This document shows, one piece after another, positions 44,134 to 51,753 of a stretch of 64,000 nucleotides of DNA; the stretch's first letter is position 1; every line of letters begins with the position of its first letter. The position numbers and the translations under genes were made by a program. Origin of the DNA: Anaerolineae bacterium (GTDB taxonomy: Bacteria; Chloroflexota; Anaerolineae; J036; Brachytrichaceae); NCBI GenBank assembly GCA_947476335.1, contig CANJQH010000001.1, positions 1-64,000 of the forward strand, given 5' to 3'. The notes below the pieces were generated by a model. It saw only the letters and a list, made by a program, of their open reading frames with translations, did no database searches and was not told where the DNA came from.

Positions 44134-44299
44134 GTAACGATTCAGGCCAAAATTCGTATTTCCCACGAAACACGCGATTTTTCTCCTGCAAGTCCTGCAA
44201 GTCCTGCAAGTTCTGCAAGTCCTGCAAGTCCTGCAAGTCCTGCAAGGAGGAAGGAATCGCGTGTTTTGCATTGGAAAGCCGGATGGTTTGAGTCGTTAC
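44134..44299. mobile_element. MITE-1-like copy whose loop is a 9-bp tandem repeat
   Basis: Ends GTAACGATTCAGGCC and GGTTTGAGTCGTTAC. The stem parts CACGAAACACGCGATTTTTC and GGAATCGCGTGTTTTGC are intact. The loop holds TCCTGCAAG x7 (44184-44246). Flanks ACCTCTTG and ATTTCTTG are a near target duplication. Confidence 0.82.
44184..44246. repeat. 9-bp tandem repeat (TCCTGCAAG x 7)
   Basis: Six identical units and one with a single change, placed in the hairpin loop of a MITE-1-like element. Confidence 0.96.
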
Positions 44300-44508
44300 A
44301 TTTCTTGACAGTGCACGGTTATTAAGGTGATAATCTGCGGCTGTGAATGCGTTGCTGCATTCAATGGCATTGGGTGGAAGTGGGGAGCTCGTGCAAATGC
44401 CGAGTTTGTGCGCAGATACAACGCTTTCAACCCCGTGTTTTTGTACCTTCGCGTTTTCGCGTTTTCGCGTTTTCGCGTTATTGGATGTTGTGTAGGAGGA
44501 GAAAAGAC
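44300..44508 (+). promoter_or_regulatory. leader of the peptide ABC operon
   Basis: This 209-bp leader starts directly at the end of a MITE-1-like copy. TTGACA at about 44307 could be a -35 element, with GATAAT at about 44329 as a -10 (about 17 bases apart). It also contains TTTTCGCG repeats (44452-44478) and the Shine-Dalgarno AGGAGGAGAA before ATG 44509. Confidence 0.45.
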
Positions 44509-46524
44509 ATGGACAGTCGCAAACCGTTTGCCGCAACCAGTCTGCTCGCCGCAGCCAGCCTGATTTTGGCTGCGTGTGGTGCACAGGGAACGCCGATCGT
44601 TCAAACTGTGGTGGTGACGCAGGAAGTCGCCAAGGAAGTCGTGAAGGAAGTGCAGGTCGAGAAGACGGTCGAAGTGGTGAAGGAAGTCGTCGCCACATCT
44701 GCTCCGGAATGGACGAAGCCGCACCCGATCCTGAGTGACGTGCGCGTGCGCCAGGCGATTGCGCAGTGCAGCGACCGCGACGCGCTGATTGCGTCGGTCT
44801 ACGATTACGTGTCGGATGAGGATAAGCCGAAGCTGCGCATGGACACGTTCATGCCGAAGACGGCTGAGTTCTATGCCAAGGACAATCCGAACATCATTGA
44901 CTACAAGCACGACATTACCGCGGCGGGCAAGCTGCTCGACGATGCGGGCTGGAAACTGCCGGAAGGCGGCAGCGTGCGCGAAAACGCTGCGGGCGAACCG
45001 CTGATCATCCGCTTCGGGACGACGAATGCGGCTTTCCGCCAGACGTGGGCAGCGGTGTTCGAGAAGCAGATGTCTGCGTGTGGCATCGTGCTGCAGCGCT
45101 CACATGTCCCCGGCAGCATCTGGTTCGGTGGCAACTCCGGCCTGCGCCGTCGTGATTTCGATATGGGCGCATTCGCCTGGGTCGGTGAGGCTGAGCCCCC
45201 CGGCGTGACGATTTACGCGTGCGACCAGATCCCGACGCCGGCCAACAACTGGGCGGGCCAGAACTACATGGGCTGGTGCAACGAGAAGGCGAGCAATGCG
45301 ATCAAGGCGGGCAACAACACGCTCGACCGCGCGGAGCGCATCAAGCAGTACGCCATCGTCCAGGAAGAGTTCACCAAGGATATGCCGTCGCTGCCGCTGT
45401 TCCAGCGCAACGAGACGGCCGGCTACAACAAAAATCTCAAGGGGTTCAAGGCGAACACCACCGAGTATTACTCGCACAGCGCGAAGGACTGGGACAACGG
45501 CGGCAAAGATGTCGTCATTGCGCTGACGCAGGAACCTGCCTCGATGTTCGGCCTGATTGAGAGCGCTGCGGTGCAGCGCATCGCTGCAATCCTCATCGAT
45601 ACCGGCTGCTACACGCAGTACGACTACGGCTATCAGCCGAATCCGCAGTGCATGGACGCGTTCCCGAGCATCGGCAACGGCGCGACGAATGACCCTGTTG
45701 AGCCGAAGGACGGTGACCGCATCGTTGACTCGAGCGGCAACCTGGCGCAGATCGTTGGCGGCAAGGCCGTGGCGCTGGATGAAGAAAACAAGCCGACCGA
45801 CAAGGTCGTCACGGTCAAGAATGAGAAGGGCGAGGACGTCGAGTTTGCCGCTGGCGTGAAACTGCTGCAGTTGAAGGTCACGCACAAGTACAAGGCCGGC
45901 GCAAAGTGGAGCGACGGCGAGGCTGTGAAGGCCGAGGACATGCTGCTGGGATACAAGGTGTCGTGCGCGAAGGACAGCGGCGCCACTTCGTTCTACGGCT
46001 GCGATCGCACCGCGTCGTTTGAGGCGAAGGACGTCGACGGGGGCATCGAAGCTGTGTCGGTGTATATCGCCGGCTATCAGCCGCCCACCTACTTCCTGCC
46101 CGGCGGCTTCGGCATTCCGGCGCATCAGGTTGTAGCGAGCGAAGGCCCGAACAAGGACAAGAAGCTCTCTGAGGTCCCGACGGCTGATTTCCAGAAGCTG
46201 CCGGAAATCACCGAGACGCCGCTGGGCACCGGCCCCTACGTGCTCGCGAAGTGGGAGAAGGGCCAGCGCATGACGTTCGAGGCCAACAAGAACTATCCGG
46301 GCGAACTGAAGGTGAAGAAGATCATCATTCAGTTCTTCGGCGACACCAACGGCGCCGTGGCTGCGCTGCTGGCGGGCGATGTCGACATTGTCGGCAGCGA
46401 AACGCTGGGCGCGGGTGCAGAAGCGAAGGCCGTCATCGAAGCCGCTGCTGCGGGCAAGATCTCGGCAGAGAATATCGCTTCGGCCACGTGGGAGCACATC
46501 GACTTCAACTTCAACGTTCGCTAA
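44509..46524 (+). CDS. peptide-binding lipoprotein (SBP_bac_5) with circularly permuted halves
   Basis: A 671-residue lipoprotein. ATG 44509 follows AGGAGGAGAA. The lipobox is LILAACGAQ (Cys about 23), followed by a Val/Glu/Lys linker (VVTQEVAKEVVKEVQVEK). At about 72 comes HPILSDVRVRQAIAQCSDRD, then LLDDAGWKLPEGG, FDMGAFAWVGEAEPPG, NNWAGQNYMGWCNEKASNA and DMPSLPLFQRN (to about 328). These are the C-terminal half of family 5 peptide-binding proteins. From about 329 follows KDVVIALTQEPASMFGL, then YKAGAKWSDGEAVKAEDMLL, TPLGTGPYVLAKWEKGQ, AALLAGDVDIV, ending WEHIDFNFNVR: the normal N-terminal half. The ends coincide with the natural junction. First gene of the ABC operon. Confidence 0.88.
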   Translation: MDSRKPFAATSLLAAASLILAACGAQGTPIVQTVVVTQEVAKEVVKEVQVEKTVEVVKEVVATSAPEWTKPHPILSDVRVRQAIAQCSDRDALIASVYDYVSDEDKPKLRMDTFMPKTAEFYAKDNPNIIDYKHDITAAGKLLDDAGWKLPEGGSVRENAAGEPLIIRFGTTNAAFRQTWAAVFEKQMSACGIVLQRSHVPGSIWFGGNSGLRRRDFDMGAFAWVGEAEPPGVTIYACDQIPTPANNWAGQNYMGWCNEKASNAIKAGNNTLDRAERIKQYAIVQEEFTKDMPSLPLFQRNETAGYNKNLKGFKANTTEYYSHSAKDWDNGGKDVVIALTQEPASMFGLIESAAVQRIAAILIDTGCYTQYDYGYQPNPQCMDAFPSIGNGATNDPVEPKDGDRIVDSSGNLAQIVGGKAVALDEENKPTDKVVTVKNEKGEDVEFAAGVKLLQLKVTHKYKAGAKWSDGEAVKAEDMLLGYKVSCAKDSGATSFYGCDRTASFEAKDVDGGIEAVSVYIAGYQPPTYFLPGGFGIPAHQVVASEGPNKDKKLSEVPTADFQKLPEITETPLGTGPYVLAKWEKGQRMTFEANKNYPGELKVKKIIIQFFGDTNGAVAALLAGDVDIVGSETLGAGAEAKAVIEAAAAGKISAENIASATWEHIDFNFNVR

Positions 46525-46541
46525 ACGCATCGTGTAAATCA

Positions 46542-46653
46542 GTAACTACTCAGGCCCAAATCAGTATTTCCCGCGAAACACACTATTCTCTCCTCCTTTG
46601 GGGGAGGGAATAGTGTGTTTCGCGTTGGAAAAATAGCTGGCCTGAGTAGTTAC
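46542..46653. mobile_element. MITE-1 copy (intact) after the lipoprotein gene
   Basis: A complete element in reverse orientation, with target duplication GTAAATCA on both sides (46534-46541, 46654-46661). It lies 18 bp after the stop codon, inside the ABC operon. Confidence 0.94.
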
Positions 46654-47000
46654 GTAAATCATGATGTGATCCAGGCCGCTCCATGGCCGCAGTTCGCGGA
46701 TATGGAGCGGCTTGTTGCTTTTGTAACGACTCAGCCCTGTGCTTGTAAATTGCTTGAATCATCAATCCTCGTCTCTTTGTGAAGCAAGTTGTGAAGCAAA
46801 TTGTGAAGCAAATTGTGAAGCAAATTGTGAAGCAAGTTGTGAAGCAAATTGTGAAGCAAGTTAGAAAGTGGCTGGGGAGCGGATCAGGAAGTTTAGGAAG
46901 CGAAGGACGATGCAAGGCTGATTTCACACTGGCTAAGTCGTTGCTGTTTTGACTTCGTGTTTGACTTCGTGTTTGACTTGGTTACGGAGGTTTGTTCGAG
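46654..47000. repeat. intergenic region with hairpin, MITE-1 remnant and 12-bp tandem repeat
   Basis: Contains a hairpin (GCCGCTCCATGGCC..TATGGAGCGGC, 46675-46711). A decayed MITE-1 end (GTAACGACTCAGCCC) is at 46722. GTGAAGCAA(A/G)TT is repeated exactly seven times (46779-46862). GACTTCGTGTTT repeats are at 46951-46980. The permease gene's GGAGG follows at 46986. No gene is seen. Confidence 0.85.
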
Positions 47001-48209
47001 GTGTTGACGTTTTTGGTGCGCCGGGCGATTTCGATTTTCGCCATATTGCTTCTGGTGTCGTTTGCGGCGTACTGGCTCTTTTACAATGCGCCGGGCGGGC
47101 CTCTGCAGCTCATCGCTGAACTGCAGCAGAGCGGGCGCAACCAGCTCGATGCCGGCGCCGTCGATCGCATCAAACTGCGTTACGACCTGGACTTGTACCA
47201 TGGCGTGCGTTACATGCGCTGGCTGACTGGATTCCCAAGCGGGCCGATCGTGATCGGTGGGCAGCAGATGTTTTCCGGCACGCCGATCGGCTGCCTGAAG
47301 GAAGCGCCGTCCGGGAAAAAAGTGATTTTGCAGTACGCCGACGGCACGCGCATCGAGTCGAACTGTCTGCGGCCGACGTATCTGCAGGATCTGATGAACC
47401 CTAATCGGCGGCTCAGCAAGGGCGCGCTGCGCCTGGATTTCGGCGTTTCACAGCTGATCGCGCGCGAACGGCCGGTGATGGAGCTGATCGAGACTCGCCT
47501 TGCGCCGACGCTGCTGCTGATGGGAATTGCCAATCTGCTCGCCATCATCATTGCTGTGCCGATCGGCATTTTGTCCGCTGTAAAACAGTACTCGCGCTTC
47601 GATTACATCGTCACTACAGTGACGTTCTTTGGATCGGCAATGCCCACACTCTTTCTCGGCATTATGGGCATCTTGTTCTTCTCACTTTTTCTGCGTGACG
47701 CCGGGCTGCCTTTTCTGCCGCCTCAGCTGGCTGAATCGAACCGCGACGCCGTCGTCCCTCTGCTTGGTGAAATCACCGCAGGCTCACTGGGCGACCACAT
47801 CTGGCATCTCGTGCTGCCTGTGTCTGTGCTCACGTTCGTCAGCCTGACCGGCTGGAGCCGCTTTGTGCGTTCGAGCATGCTCGAGGTGCTCAAACAGGAC
47901 TACGTGCGCACTGCGCGCGCCAAAGGGTTGCGCGAGAGCATGGTGATCCTGAAGCATGCATTTCGCAACAGCATGATTCCATTTGTCACCCTGCTGGTGG
48001 GCGTGCTGCCGAGCCTGTTCGCAGGCGCCATCGTGACCGAATCGATTTTCAGCTGGCCCGGCCTCGGCCGTTTGTACGTGCAGGCGCTTGGCGGTGACTA
48101 CACCGTCGCCATGGCCATTCTGCTGATCTCAACTTTTCTGACCTTGATCAGCTTTTTGCTGGCCGATGTTCTCTACACCGTCGTCGATCCGCGTATTCGT
48201 CTTTCGTAG
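47001..48209 (+). CDS. peptide ABC transporter permease (DppB-like)
   Basis: A 402-residue inner-membrane permease. GTG 47001 (VLTFLVRRAISIFAI) was chosen because CGGAGG lies 10 bases before it; a TTG at 46992 is too close. After TM1 there is a large extracytoplasmic loop of about 150 residues (about 30-170) containing two cysteines, larger than in DppB of model bacteria. The permease core (about 170-400) has the EAA signature EVLKQDYVRTARAKGLRESMV and the final VVDPRIRLS. Makes the translocation channel together with the second permease. Separated from the lipoprotein gene by a MITE-1 insertion and tandem repeats (476 bp). Confidence 0.9.
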   Translation: MLTFLVRRAISIFAILLLVSFAAYWLFYNAPGGPLQLIAELQQSGRNQLDAGAVDRIKLRYDLDLYHGVRYMRWLTGFPSGPIVIGGQQMFSGTPIGCLKEAPSGKKVILQYADGTRIESNCLRPTYLQDLMNPNRRLSKGALRLDFGVSQLIARERPVMELIETRLAPTLLLMGIANLLAIIIAVPIGILSAVKQYSRFDYIVTTVTFFGSAMPTLFLGIMGILFFSLFLRDAGLPFLPPQLAESNRDAVVPLLGEITAGSLGDHIWHLVLPVSVLTFVSLTGWSRFVRSSMLEVLKQDYVRTARAKGLRESMVILKHAFRNSMIPFVTLLVGVLPSLFAGAIVTESIFSWPGLGRLYVQALGGDYTVAMAILLISTFLTLISFLLADVLYTVVDPRIRLS

Positions 48210-48403: not shown

Positions 48404-49411
48404 ATGGCAAGCAGCACAGTACAGCCCCGCGCATCGCGCGCATCCGATGCGCGCCCGAACATGAAGACGGAAAGCCAGACCGCGCTGGTGTGGCGACGTT
48501 TTCGCAAGCATCGCCTGGCGGTGATTTCGATGGTGCTGTTGACCCTGATTTTTCTGCTTTCGCTGTTTGCACCGCTTGTCGCACCGTTCAAAATTGATCA
48601 CCTCGACCCTACGTATAAATTCGTGCCGTTCATGACGGTGTACAAGCCGACCGGGCAGGTTTACATCTTTGGCTCTGACCAGCTCGGGCGCGACCTGCTG
48701 ACGCGGCTGCTTTACGGCGCGCGCGTGACGCTCTCTGTGGCCGTGCTGGTGGCGTCATTGTCGTGCGCGGTGGGTGCGCTGATCGGCGCCGTGGCCGGCT
48801 ACTATCGCGGCATTATCGACACTGCGCTCATGCGTGTGCTCGATTTCACGTCAGGCATTCCAGATCTGCCTGTGCTGCTGATTCTGGCGTCGATTCTACT
48901 GACCGATCCGAAGCTGCTGCCGCTGCCTGATTTTGTGACGCGCATTTTCGAAGCGCTGCTGCTTGTCCGTGAACGAGAGGCGCGTTCGGTGGTGGTGATC
49001 GTGCTGGTGTTGACGATCCTTGGCTGGACGGGCGTGGCGCGCCTGACGCGCGGCATGGTGCTTGCGGTGCGTGAGGCGGATTATGTGACTGCGTCGCGTT
49101 CGCTTGGGATGGGCGATACTTCACTCATTCTGCGGCATATCATGCCAAATGTGTTGGCGCCGATCATTGTGGCGTTTACGCAGTCGCTCGCTGGCGCATT
49201 CGCTGCGGAGACGGCGCTTAGCTTTCTCGGCTTCGGCGTGCAGGAACCCGCCGCTACGTGGGGCAACATGATGTCTATCGCGCAGAACAACATCTTCGAA
49301 AATCGTGTCATGCCGCTTGTGGTCGGATTGCCGATCCTGATCTGTTCGCTCGCGTTCAATTTCATCGGCGACGGTCTGCGCGACGCGCTTGATCCGCGTC
49401 TGAAAATGTAG
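48404..49411 (+). CDS. peptide ABC transporter permease (DppC-like)
   Basis: A 335-residue second permease. The N-terminus WRRFRKHRLAVISMVLLTLIF is the OppC_N-type segment with TM1. Then comes the extracytoplasmic loop with FGSDQLGRDLLTRLLYGARV, a DppC/OppC hallmark. The permease core follows, with EAA loop AVREADYVTASRSLGMGDTSLILRHIMPN and C-terminus GDGLRDALDPRLKM. ATG 48404 has no clear Shine-Dalgarno; ATG 48461 (MKTESQTALV) is an alternative. Pairs with the DppB-like permease in the peptide importer. Confidence 0.92.
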   Translation: MASSTVQPRASRASDARPNMKTESQTALVWRRFRKHRLAVISMVLLTLIFLLSLFAPLVAPFKIDHLDPTYKFVPFMTVYKPTGQVYIFGSDQLGRDLLTRLLYGARVTLSVAVLVASLSCAVGALIGAVAGYYRGIIDTALMRVLDFTSGIPDLPVLLILASILLTDPKLLPLPDFVTRIFEALLLVREREARSVVVIVLVLTILGWTGVARLTRGMVLAVREADYVTASRSLGMGDTSLILRHIMPNVLAPIIVAFTQSLAGAFAAETALSFLGFGVQEPAATWGNMMSIAQNNIFENRVMPLVVGLPILICSLAFNFIGDGLRDALDPRLKM

Positions 49412-49593: not shown

Positions 49594-50622
49594 ATGGTCC
49601 CAGCTACTGTCGGTGCAGCAACTTCATCACGAGCATATGCCCGGTCTGAAGATATCCTGTTGGATATTCAGGGCCTCAAGACGCACTTTTTCACCGAAGA
49701 CGGAGTGGTCAGAGCAGTCGACGGTGTTGACATTTACGTGAAAAAAGGTGAATGTCTGGGTGTGGTGGGCGAATCTGGATGCGGTAAAAGTCAGACCATG
49801 ATGTCTGTGATGCGGCTGATCGGCCCGCCCGGCCGTATCGTGGAAGGCAGCATCGCGTACGATGGTCGTCAGATGCTGAATCTGACTGAGAAGCAGATGA
49901 CGGAGATCCGCGGCAACAAGATCTCGATGATCTTTCAGCAGCCGCAGACGTGTCTGAATCCGGTATTCAAGGTGGGCGATCAGATCGCCGAAGTGCTCGA
50001 AATTCATCAGGGCTTGAGCAAGAAGGACAGCATAAAGCGGGCGATCGATCTGCTGCGCATGGTCGGTATTCCTGAGCCTGCCAAGCGCGCGAATGCGTAC
50101 CCGCACGAAATTTCTGGTGGTCAGGCGCAGCGCGTCATGATCGCGATGGCGCTGGCGTGCCAGCCGTCGCTGCTGATCGCGGACGAGCCGACGACGGCGC
50201 TTGACGTGACGATTCAGGCACAGATTCTTGATCTGATGCGCGACCTGCGCGCGAAGACGAATACGGCGATTATTCTGATCACGCACGACCTCGGCGTGGT
50301 GGCGGAAATGTGTGAGCGCGTCATGGTGATGTACGCCGGCCAGATTGTGGAAGAGGCCGACGTGAGAACCATTTTCAAAAATCCGAAGCATCCGTACACG
50401 AAGGGCCTGATCGGCTCGACGCCGGTGCTTGGTGATGTGCGCGAACGGCTCGAGGTGATTCCCGGCTCGGTACCGAATCTGCTGAACCCACCGCCCGGCT
50501 GTCGCTTTGAACCGCGCTGTCAGTTGTGCGAAGGCACCGCCCGCGAGCGTTGTCGCACCGAACTGCCGCCACTGCGTGAAATTGAGCCCGGACATTTCGT
50601 ACGCACATGGCTGTACGACTAA
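49594..50622 (+). CDS. peptide ABC transporter ATPase (DppD-like)
   Basis: A 342-residue ATPase of the oligo/dipeptide family. Walker A GESGCGKSQTMMSVM is at about 59-66; the Q-loop is in SMIFQQPQTCLNPVF. Signature SGGQAQRVMIAMALAC is at about 172, Walker B LLIADEPTTALD at about 192, and the H-loop in ILITHDLGVVAEMCER. The C-terminal oligopeptide domain has PPPGCRFEPRCQLCEGTARERC, a cysteine cluster typical of DppD/OppD. ATG 49594 follows GAGGAGAACAC. Works as a heterodimer with the next ATPase. Confidence 0.95.
   Translation: MVPATVGAATSSRAYARSEDILLDIQGLKTHFFTEDGVVRAVDGVDIYVKKGECLGVVGESGCGKSQTMMSVMRLIGPPGRIVEGSIAYDGRQMLNLTEKQMTEIRGNKISMIFQQPQTCLNPVFKVGDQIAEVLEIHQGLSKKDSIKRAIDLLRMVGIPEPAKRANAYPHEISGGQAQRVMIAMALACQPSLLIADEPTTALDVTIQAQILDLMRDLRAKTNTAIILITHDLGVVAEMCERVMVMYAGQIVEEADVRTIFKNPKHPYTKGLIGSTPVLGDVRERLEVIPGSVPNLLNPPPGCRFEPRCQLCEGTARERCRTELPPLREIEPGHFVRTWLYD

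Positions 50623-50742: not shown

Positions 50743-51753
<1,011 letters not shown>

Follow-up and report, generated by a model that had tools for sequence, protein, structure and literature searches.

The product of the gene at 44509-46524 is a naturally circularly permuted family-5 binding protein (SBP) lipoprotein, and its arrangement is a true biological feature, not an artefact of assembly. The connectivity of the canonical DppA and OppA proteins, in which the N-half is followed by the C-half, is not found here; the C-half comes first. With a probability of roughly 0.9, we regard the protein as the receptor of an Opp-type importer (SBP-OppBCDF) whose cluster C fold was permuted once, naturally, in the ancestor of a Chloroflexota clade. 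Annotation by profile returns nothing more than split SBP_bac_5 matches and so conceals the swap of the halves.

Within the window (the whole stretch of 64,000 nucleotides that was analysed), the reading frame runs uninterrupted from an ATG at 44509 to a TAA at 46522-46524 and encodes a single product of 671 aa, in keeping with the first-pass annotation, which had described the frame as open throughout. In Pfam, the protein scores 142.2 bits against SBP_bac_5 (PF00496), for which the cut-off is 32.4; the match falls into two stretches, and no other Pfam family exceeds its own cut-off. A profile search of the source genome placed profile positions 209-355 at 44716-45207 and positions 20-209 at 45880-46515. 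The C-part of SBP_bac_5 thus lies before the N-part, and the break falls at a single profile position. Each part is present once with nothing duplicated, as had been claimed for the conserved blocks. NCBIfam concurs, with positions 311-547 of Opp4A on residues 72-319. The halves had been placed at residues of about 72-328 and 329-671; their order stands, while the limits are refined to about 72-333 and 334-671. The score, the single coverage by both halves and a predicted two-lobe fold are those of an SBP_bac_5 or cluster C protein, and the structural matches listed are of family 5. In addition, the lipobox and the downstream domains (BPD_transp_1 twice, ABC_tran with oligo_HPY twice) are those of an exported lipoprotein with an adjoining OppBCDF-type importer. 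The features of the locus are collected in Table 1.

Table 1. Features of the permuted SBP gene and its operon (window coordinates).
Feature	Position	Strand	Basis
Shine-Dalgarno-like AGGAGG, 5' of the ATG	44494..44499	+	sequence
Lipoprotein signal peptide with lipobox LAAC (Cys23)	44509..44577	+	sequence; kept in homologues
V/E/K-rich tether, aa 24-71, spacer from lipid anchor to fold, of variable length	44578..44721	+	alignment
C-half of family-5 SBP, aa 72-333, lobe III and return hinge strand, comes first	44722..45507	+	SBP_bac_5 209-355; 2d5w 311-600
New joint, former C-terminus joined to former N-terminus by a very short linker	45472..45520	+	sequence comparison
N-half of family-5 SBP, aa 334-671, lobe I/II, comes second	45508..46521	+	SBP_bac_5 20-209; 2d5w 4-307
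C-terminal hinge strand TWEHIDFNFNVR, free end right before the stop	46486..46521	+	uniform among complete homologues; becomes ordered only when the complete protein is modelled
OppB-like permease, listed with a TTG start, actual start uncertain	46992..48209	+	BPD_transp_1
OppB periplasmic-loop segment with the ~45-aa two-Cys insertion of permuted-SBP operons	47229..47444	+	OppB comparison
OppC-like permease	48404..49411	+	BPD_transp_1
OppD-like ATPase	49594..50622	+	ABC_tran + oligo_HPY
OppF-like ATPase	50743..51753	+	ABC_tran + oligo_HPY

The same swapped order is found in related genomes. Among 60 relatives, matches are colinear over most or all of the length; identity is 53-65% for most genomes of its own family and 45-48% for those of other families, and the genomes with a full-length colinear homologue include the single-contig assemblies G021, G053 and G056. 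A GTDB-wide scan yielded 151 matches, and in all of the best 80 loci the C-half is followed by the N-half in one frame. These 80 include isolates such as Chloroflexus islandicus, and also Oscillochloris and Ca. Chloroploca; with the best 80 of 151 as the basis of the locus set, carriers beyond Chloroflexota may exist. In an even sample of Chloroflexota, 43 of 400 genomes carry the permuted SBP (E<=1e-60), while a plasmid collection held no records that cover 80% of the query protein. The termini of the homologues are uniform: the permuted fold begins at about PHPILSDxRVRQA, and nearly all complete proteins stop 0-4 residues from TWEHhDhNhhhK/R (L096 meets a contig end). With frames intact and blocks invariant in the alignment, the permuted SBP is conserved throughout one Chloroflexota branch. 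Two loci in two genomes, one of them a single contig, carry the permuted SBP in two overlapping frames (L192:7303-9343 and L029:2551-4750); such adjacent overlapping frames in G009 and G290 may stem from a frameshift, a sequencing error or a natural split protein, with a frameshift more likely than a real split.

The fold was predicted with AlphaFold from 72 homologues, giving a pLDDT of 93.4 and a pTM of 0.89 for the whole permuted protein. As the structural aligners used are sequential, the halves were matched one by one, and the mutual placement of the lobes is the one predicted by AlphaFold. The first part of the model aligns with residues 311-600 of 2d5w (Z 24.7, 260 residues). Because this initial comparison covered chiefly model residues 7-271, the N-half was then folded and compared separately, and it aligns with residues 4-307 (Z 20.0, 266 residues). 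The two halves jointly span one 602-residue OppA-like protein, just as they cover one SBP_bac_5 domain in the profile (20-209 and 209-355), and the cluster C fold is predicted to be intact. The last 13 residues (329-341 of the N-half model) have a pLDDT <50 when the N-half is folded alone and are confident in the full protein. Since this end strand becomes ordered only with the whole protein present, we read the change as the old hinge crossover being held non-covalently by the other half.

For the phylogeny, each protein was cut into halves that were put in a common order, and quick, unrooted trees without bootstrap were built from the C-half, the N-half and the concatenation (91 rows). The permuted proteins form one side of a branch in all three trees (SH-aLRT 99-100), and two normal-order proteins, L160 and L161, from genomes G532 and G562 of the same class, adjoin the permuted clade in each of them with a support of 99. 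Like the permuted gene, L160 (seen in L189) precedes oppB-oppC-oppD-oppF and thus occupies the equivalent operon slot. Its first hinge crossover holds an expanded loop with APHPLLGD, the site where the permuted proteins start, and the loop at the new termini is expanded in the closest normal-order relatives (..TWEHMDFNTLARTNKDSKERKAPHPLLGDKTVRQAI..). At the joint, the former C-terminus (..WNIAEWEKG in L160) leads almost directly into the former N-terminus (..DTLIIGMSQEP). The three trees give a single origin of the permutation, in an ancestor of one Chloroflexota protein clade.

Permutations usually arise through the joining of equivalent tandem copies of one gene, and a route of tandem duplication followed by loss of the outer halves, which had been suggested at first pass, is plausible and probably applies here. 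Normal-order SBPs adjoin permuted ones in L127, L128, L114 and L096, which shows that tandem SBPs occur in such operons, yet these neighbours hold no direct trace of the permutation event and differ from the nearest normal-order relatives in the trees. A two-contig pattern in G052 (L030, L031) was considered as a tandem intermediate and rejected, since the overlapping N-half pieces are just 34% identical and so belong to different genes.

Two other accounts of the swapped order have to be weighed. The first-pass annotation had named an assembly error as its main alternative, and a chimeric contig in a metagenome bin would be conceivable in a source genome of 125 contigs. The same full-length, colinear order recurs in the independent single-contig assemblies and in isolates such as C. 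islandicus; these homologues and the 80 of 80 loci among the best 80 of 151 matches exclude both chance and assembly error, the probability of which is practically nil. The halves could also have been fused from two different SBP genes, with parts of tandem copies joined to one another, and the normal-order paralogues that adjoin permuted genes in some operons would offer the material. The N-half and C-half trees are concordant, however, both placing the permuted clade next to L160/L161, and this agreement disfavours an origin from unrelated genes and makes a fusion of two different genes very improbable; the joining of equivalent copies of one gene is compatible with it. The swap of a single family-5 domain, as initially proposed, is thus upheld by the profile order, the homologues, the phylogeny and the predicted fold.

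The operon of the window has the order SBP, oppB, oppC, oppD, oppF, and its domains are all present, in agreement with the earlier description of an intact ABC operon. Across the best 80 of 151 loci, oppB lies directly 3' of the permuted SBP in 72; of the other 8, the contig ends within 700 bases in 6, and L051 and L107 have no oppB nearby. An insertion of ~45 residues in the loop after the first membrane segment is found in 76/76 OppBs (the 72 next to permuted SBPs and 4 further, the window's own not counted), and 75 of them hold two cysteines, which are probably disulfide-bonded. It is absent from all 19 other OppBs compared, 14 in the same loci and 5 from loci of normal-order SBPs, including that of the sister. 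A profile of the insert matches 44 of the 400 Chloroflexota genomes, namely all 43 with a permuted SBP and G344, where the contig breaks off next to oppB and lacks the preceding gene.

The permutation and the insert appear to have arisen once each, so that their co-occurrence does not amount to many independent events and may be the legacy of a single past one. That the insert is retained throughout nonetheless suggests that it is functionally linked to the permuted SBP. The insertion might instead simply mark the lineage and have no bearing on the permutation, having been carried along by historical hitch-hiking within one operon. We find this somewhat unlikely, given that the insertion and its cysteines are so consistently kept and that, in the 400 genomes, the insert occurs without a permuted SBP only at the contig end of G344. 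A further alternative holds that the permuted SBP is a specialised binder outside the importer, with the permease fed by a normal-order SBP of the same operon. Both forms do occur in some Anaerolineae operons (L127, L128, L114 and L036), and permuted paralogues without transporter genes nearby are found in L193, L194 and L195. Against this stand the operons of the window, of its own family and of the Chloroflexales loci, in which no second SBP was seen, as well as the conservation of the permuted protein in frame and blocks and the way in which the permease insert tracks it; such a role outside the importer is improbable.

Several paralogues depart from this pattern. In L038:4762-6195, L039:4652-6247 and L196:6431-7675, one-lobe derivatives consist of the C-half, the strand WEHIDFNL and then a domain of ~130 aa that matches no Pfam family; these proteins lack the N-half, and their surroundings showed no Opp genes. 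L193:6035-8500 encodes a full permuted SBP with an extra C-terminal domain that resembles the tail of these derivatives, also with no transporter genes seen nearby. L035:94-1611 is a permuted paralogue with the same type of tether and a divergent N-half; it adjoins other Opp genes, and its frame is cut short close to the end of the contig. Directly 3' of the permuted SBP, L195:8604-11477 encodes a 958-aa fusion of Phosphonate-bd and a normal-order SBP_bac_5. In the window, a palindromic, MITE-like element of ~113-118 bp, with about 40 copies in the genome at 95-97% identity, lies between the SBP gene and oppB (46541-46655), and a partial copy lies upstream of the SBP gene (44134-44179). Short intergenic tandem repeats of 12 bp (TTGTGAAGCAAA, 46777-46874) and 9 bp (TCCTGCAAG, 44184-44255) flank the gene.

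In the reading that we prefer, that of a permuted Opp receptor, the former C- and N-termini are joined by a very short linker, with the new termini in the first hinge crossover at the loop enlarged in the nearest normal-order relatives. The lipoprotein signal and tether come ahead of the C-half, which would put the membrane tether on the hinge/lobe III side and not on lobe I. A peptide-like ligand may still be captured in the cleft by Venus flytrap closure, with one of the two hinge crossings being a free C-terminal strand, presumably held non-covalently. The two-Cys periplasmic insertion of OppB might then match the permease to a receptor that is oriented or tethered differently. As for the ligand, an M3 oligopeptidase gene precedes the operon in the window and an M20 peptidase gene follows it; loci from the same family (e.g., L052, L054 and L063) again contain homologues of either or both, and this genomic context makes peptides the favoured candidates. 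A broader scenario, to which we give even odds, is that an ancient single permutation re-tethered a cluster C SBP by the opposite lobe, that OppB co-evolved a disulfide-bonded docking insert, and that the result is a distinct Opp sub-type with a different delivery geometry, from which the one-lobe derivatives arose later.

A literature search (mostly open-access, without preprints) found no description of a permuted family-5 or cluster C SBP. The remark that the case lacks a precedent therefore holds for family 5 in the searchable literature, while a precedent exists in another SBP cluster. According to the available portions of its description, TpMglB-2 (Tp0684) of Treponema pallidum, assigned to 'cluster Bc', is a lipidated SBP that serves an ABC importer and whose permutation is natural and conserved; experimentally, it binds glucose and closes upon its ligand (PMC4990184). 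Permutation is thus compatible with SBP function. TpMglB-2 has a sugar-binding cluster B fold and represents a separate event, and the portions available mention no permease insertion (PMC4990184).

A further comparison is with family-5 or cluster C SBPs, namely the OppA-like protein of T. thermophilus (2d5w), AppA of B. subtilis (1xoc), NikZ of C. jejuni (4oet), and DppA and NikA of E. coli. The permuted protein shares with these the SBP_bac_5 family, the predicted fold of both halves and the Opp-type operon, and it differs from them in the swapped order of its halves, in termini that lie in the first hinge crossover and in a tether on the opposite side. Here, a natural permutation in one of the commonest families of bacterial binding proteins comes with a matched permease change and with living sisters, L160 and L161, which are its nearest relatives by both halves. 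The sisters retain the normal order, and no insertion is present in the OppB next to L160. This pairing makes the effects of lobe tethering and hinge connectivity on capture and docking testable, as well as the fixation of a permutation, and sensors in which new termini are wanted at the hinge could take the permuted family as a natural template.
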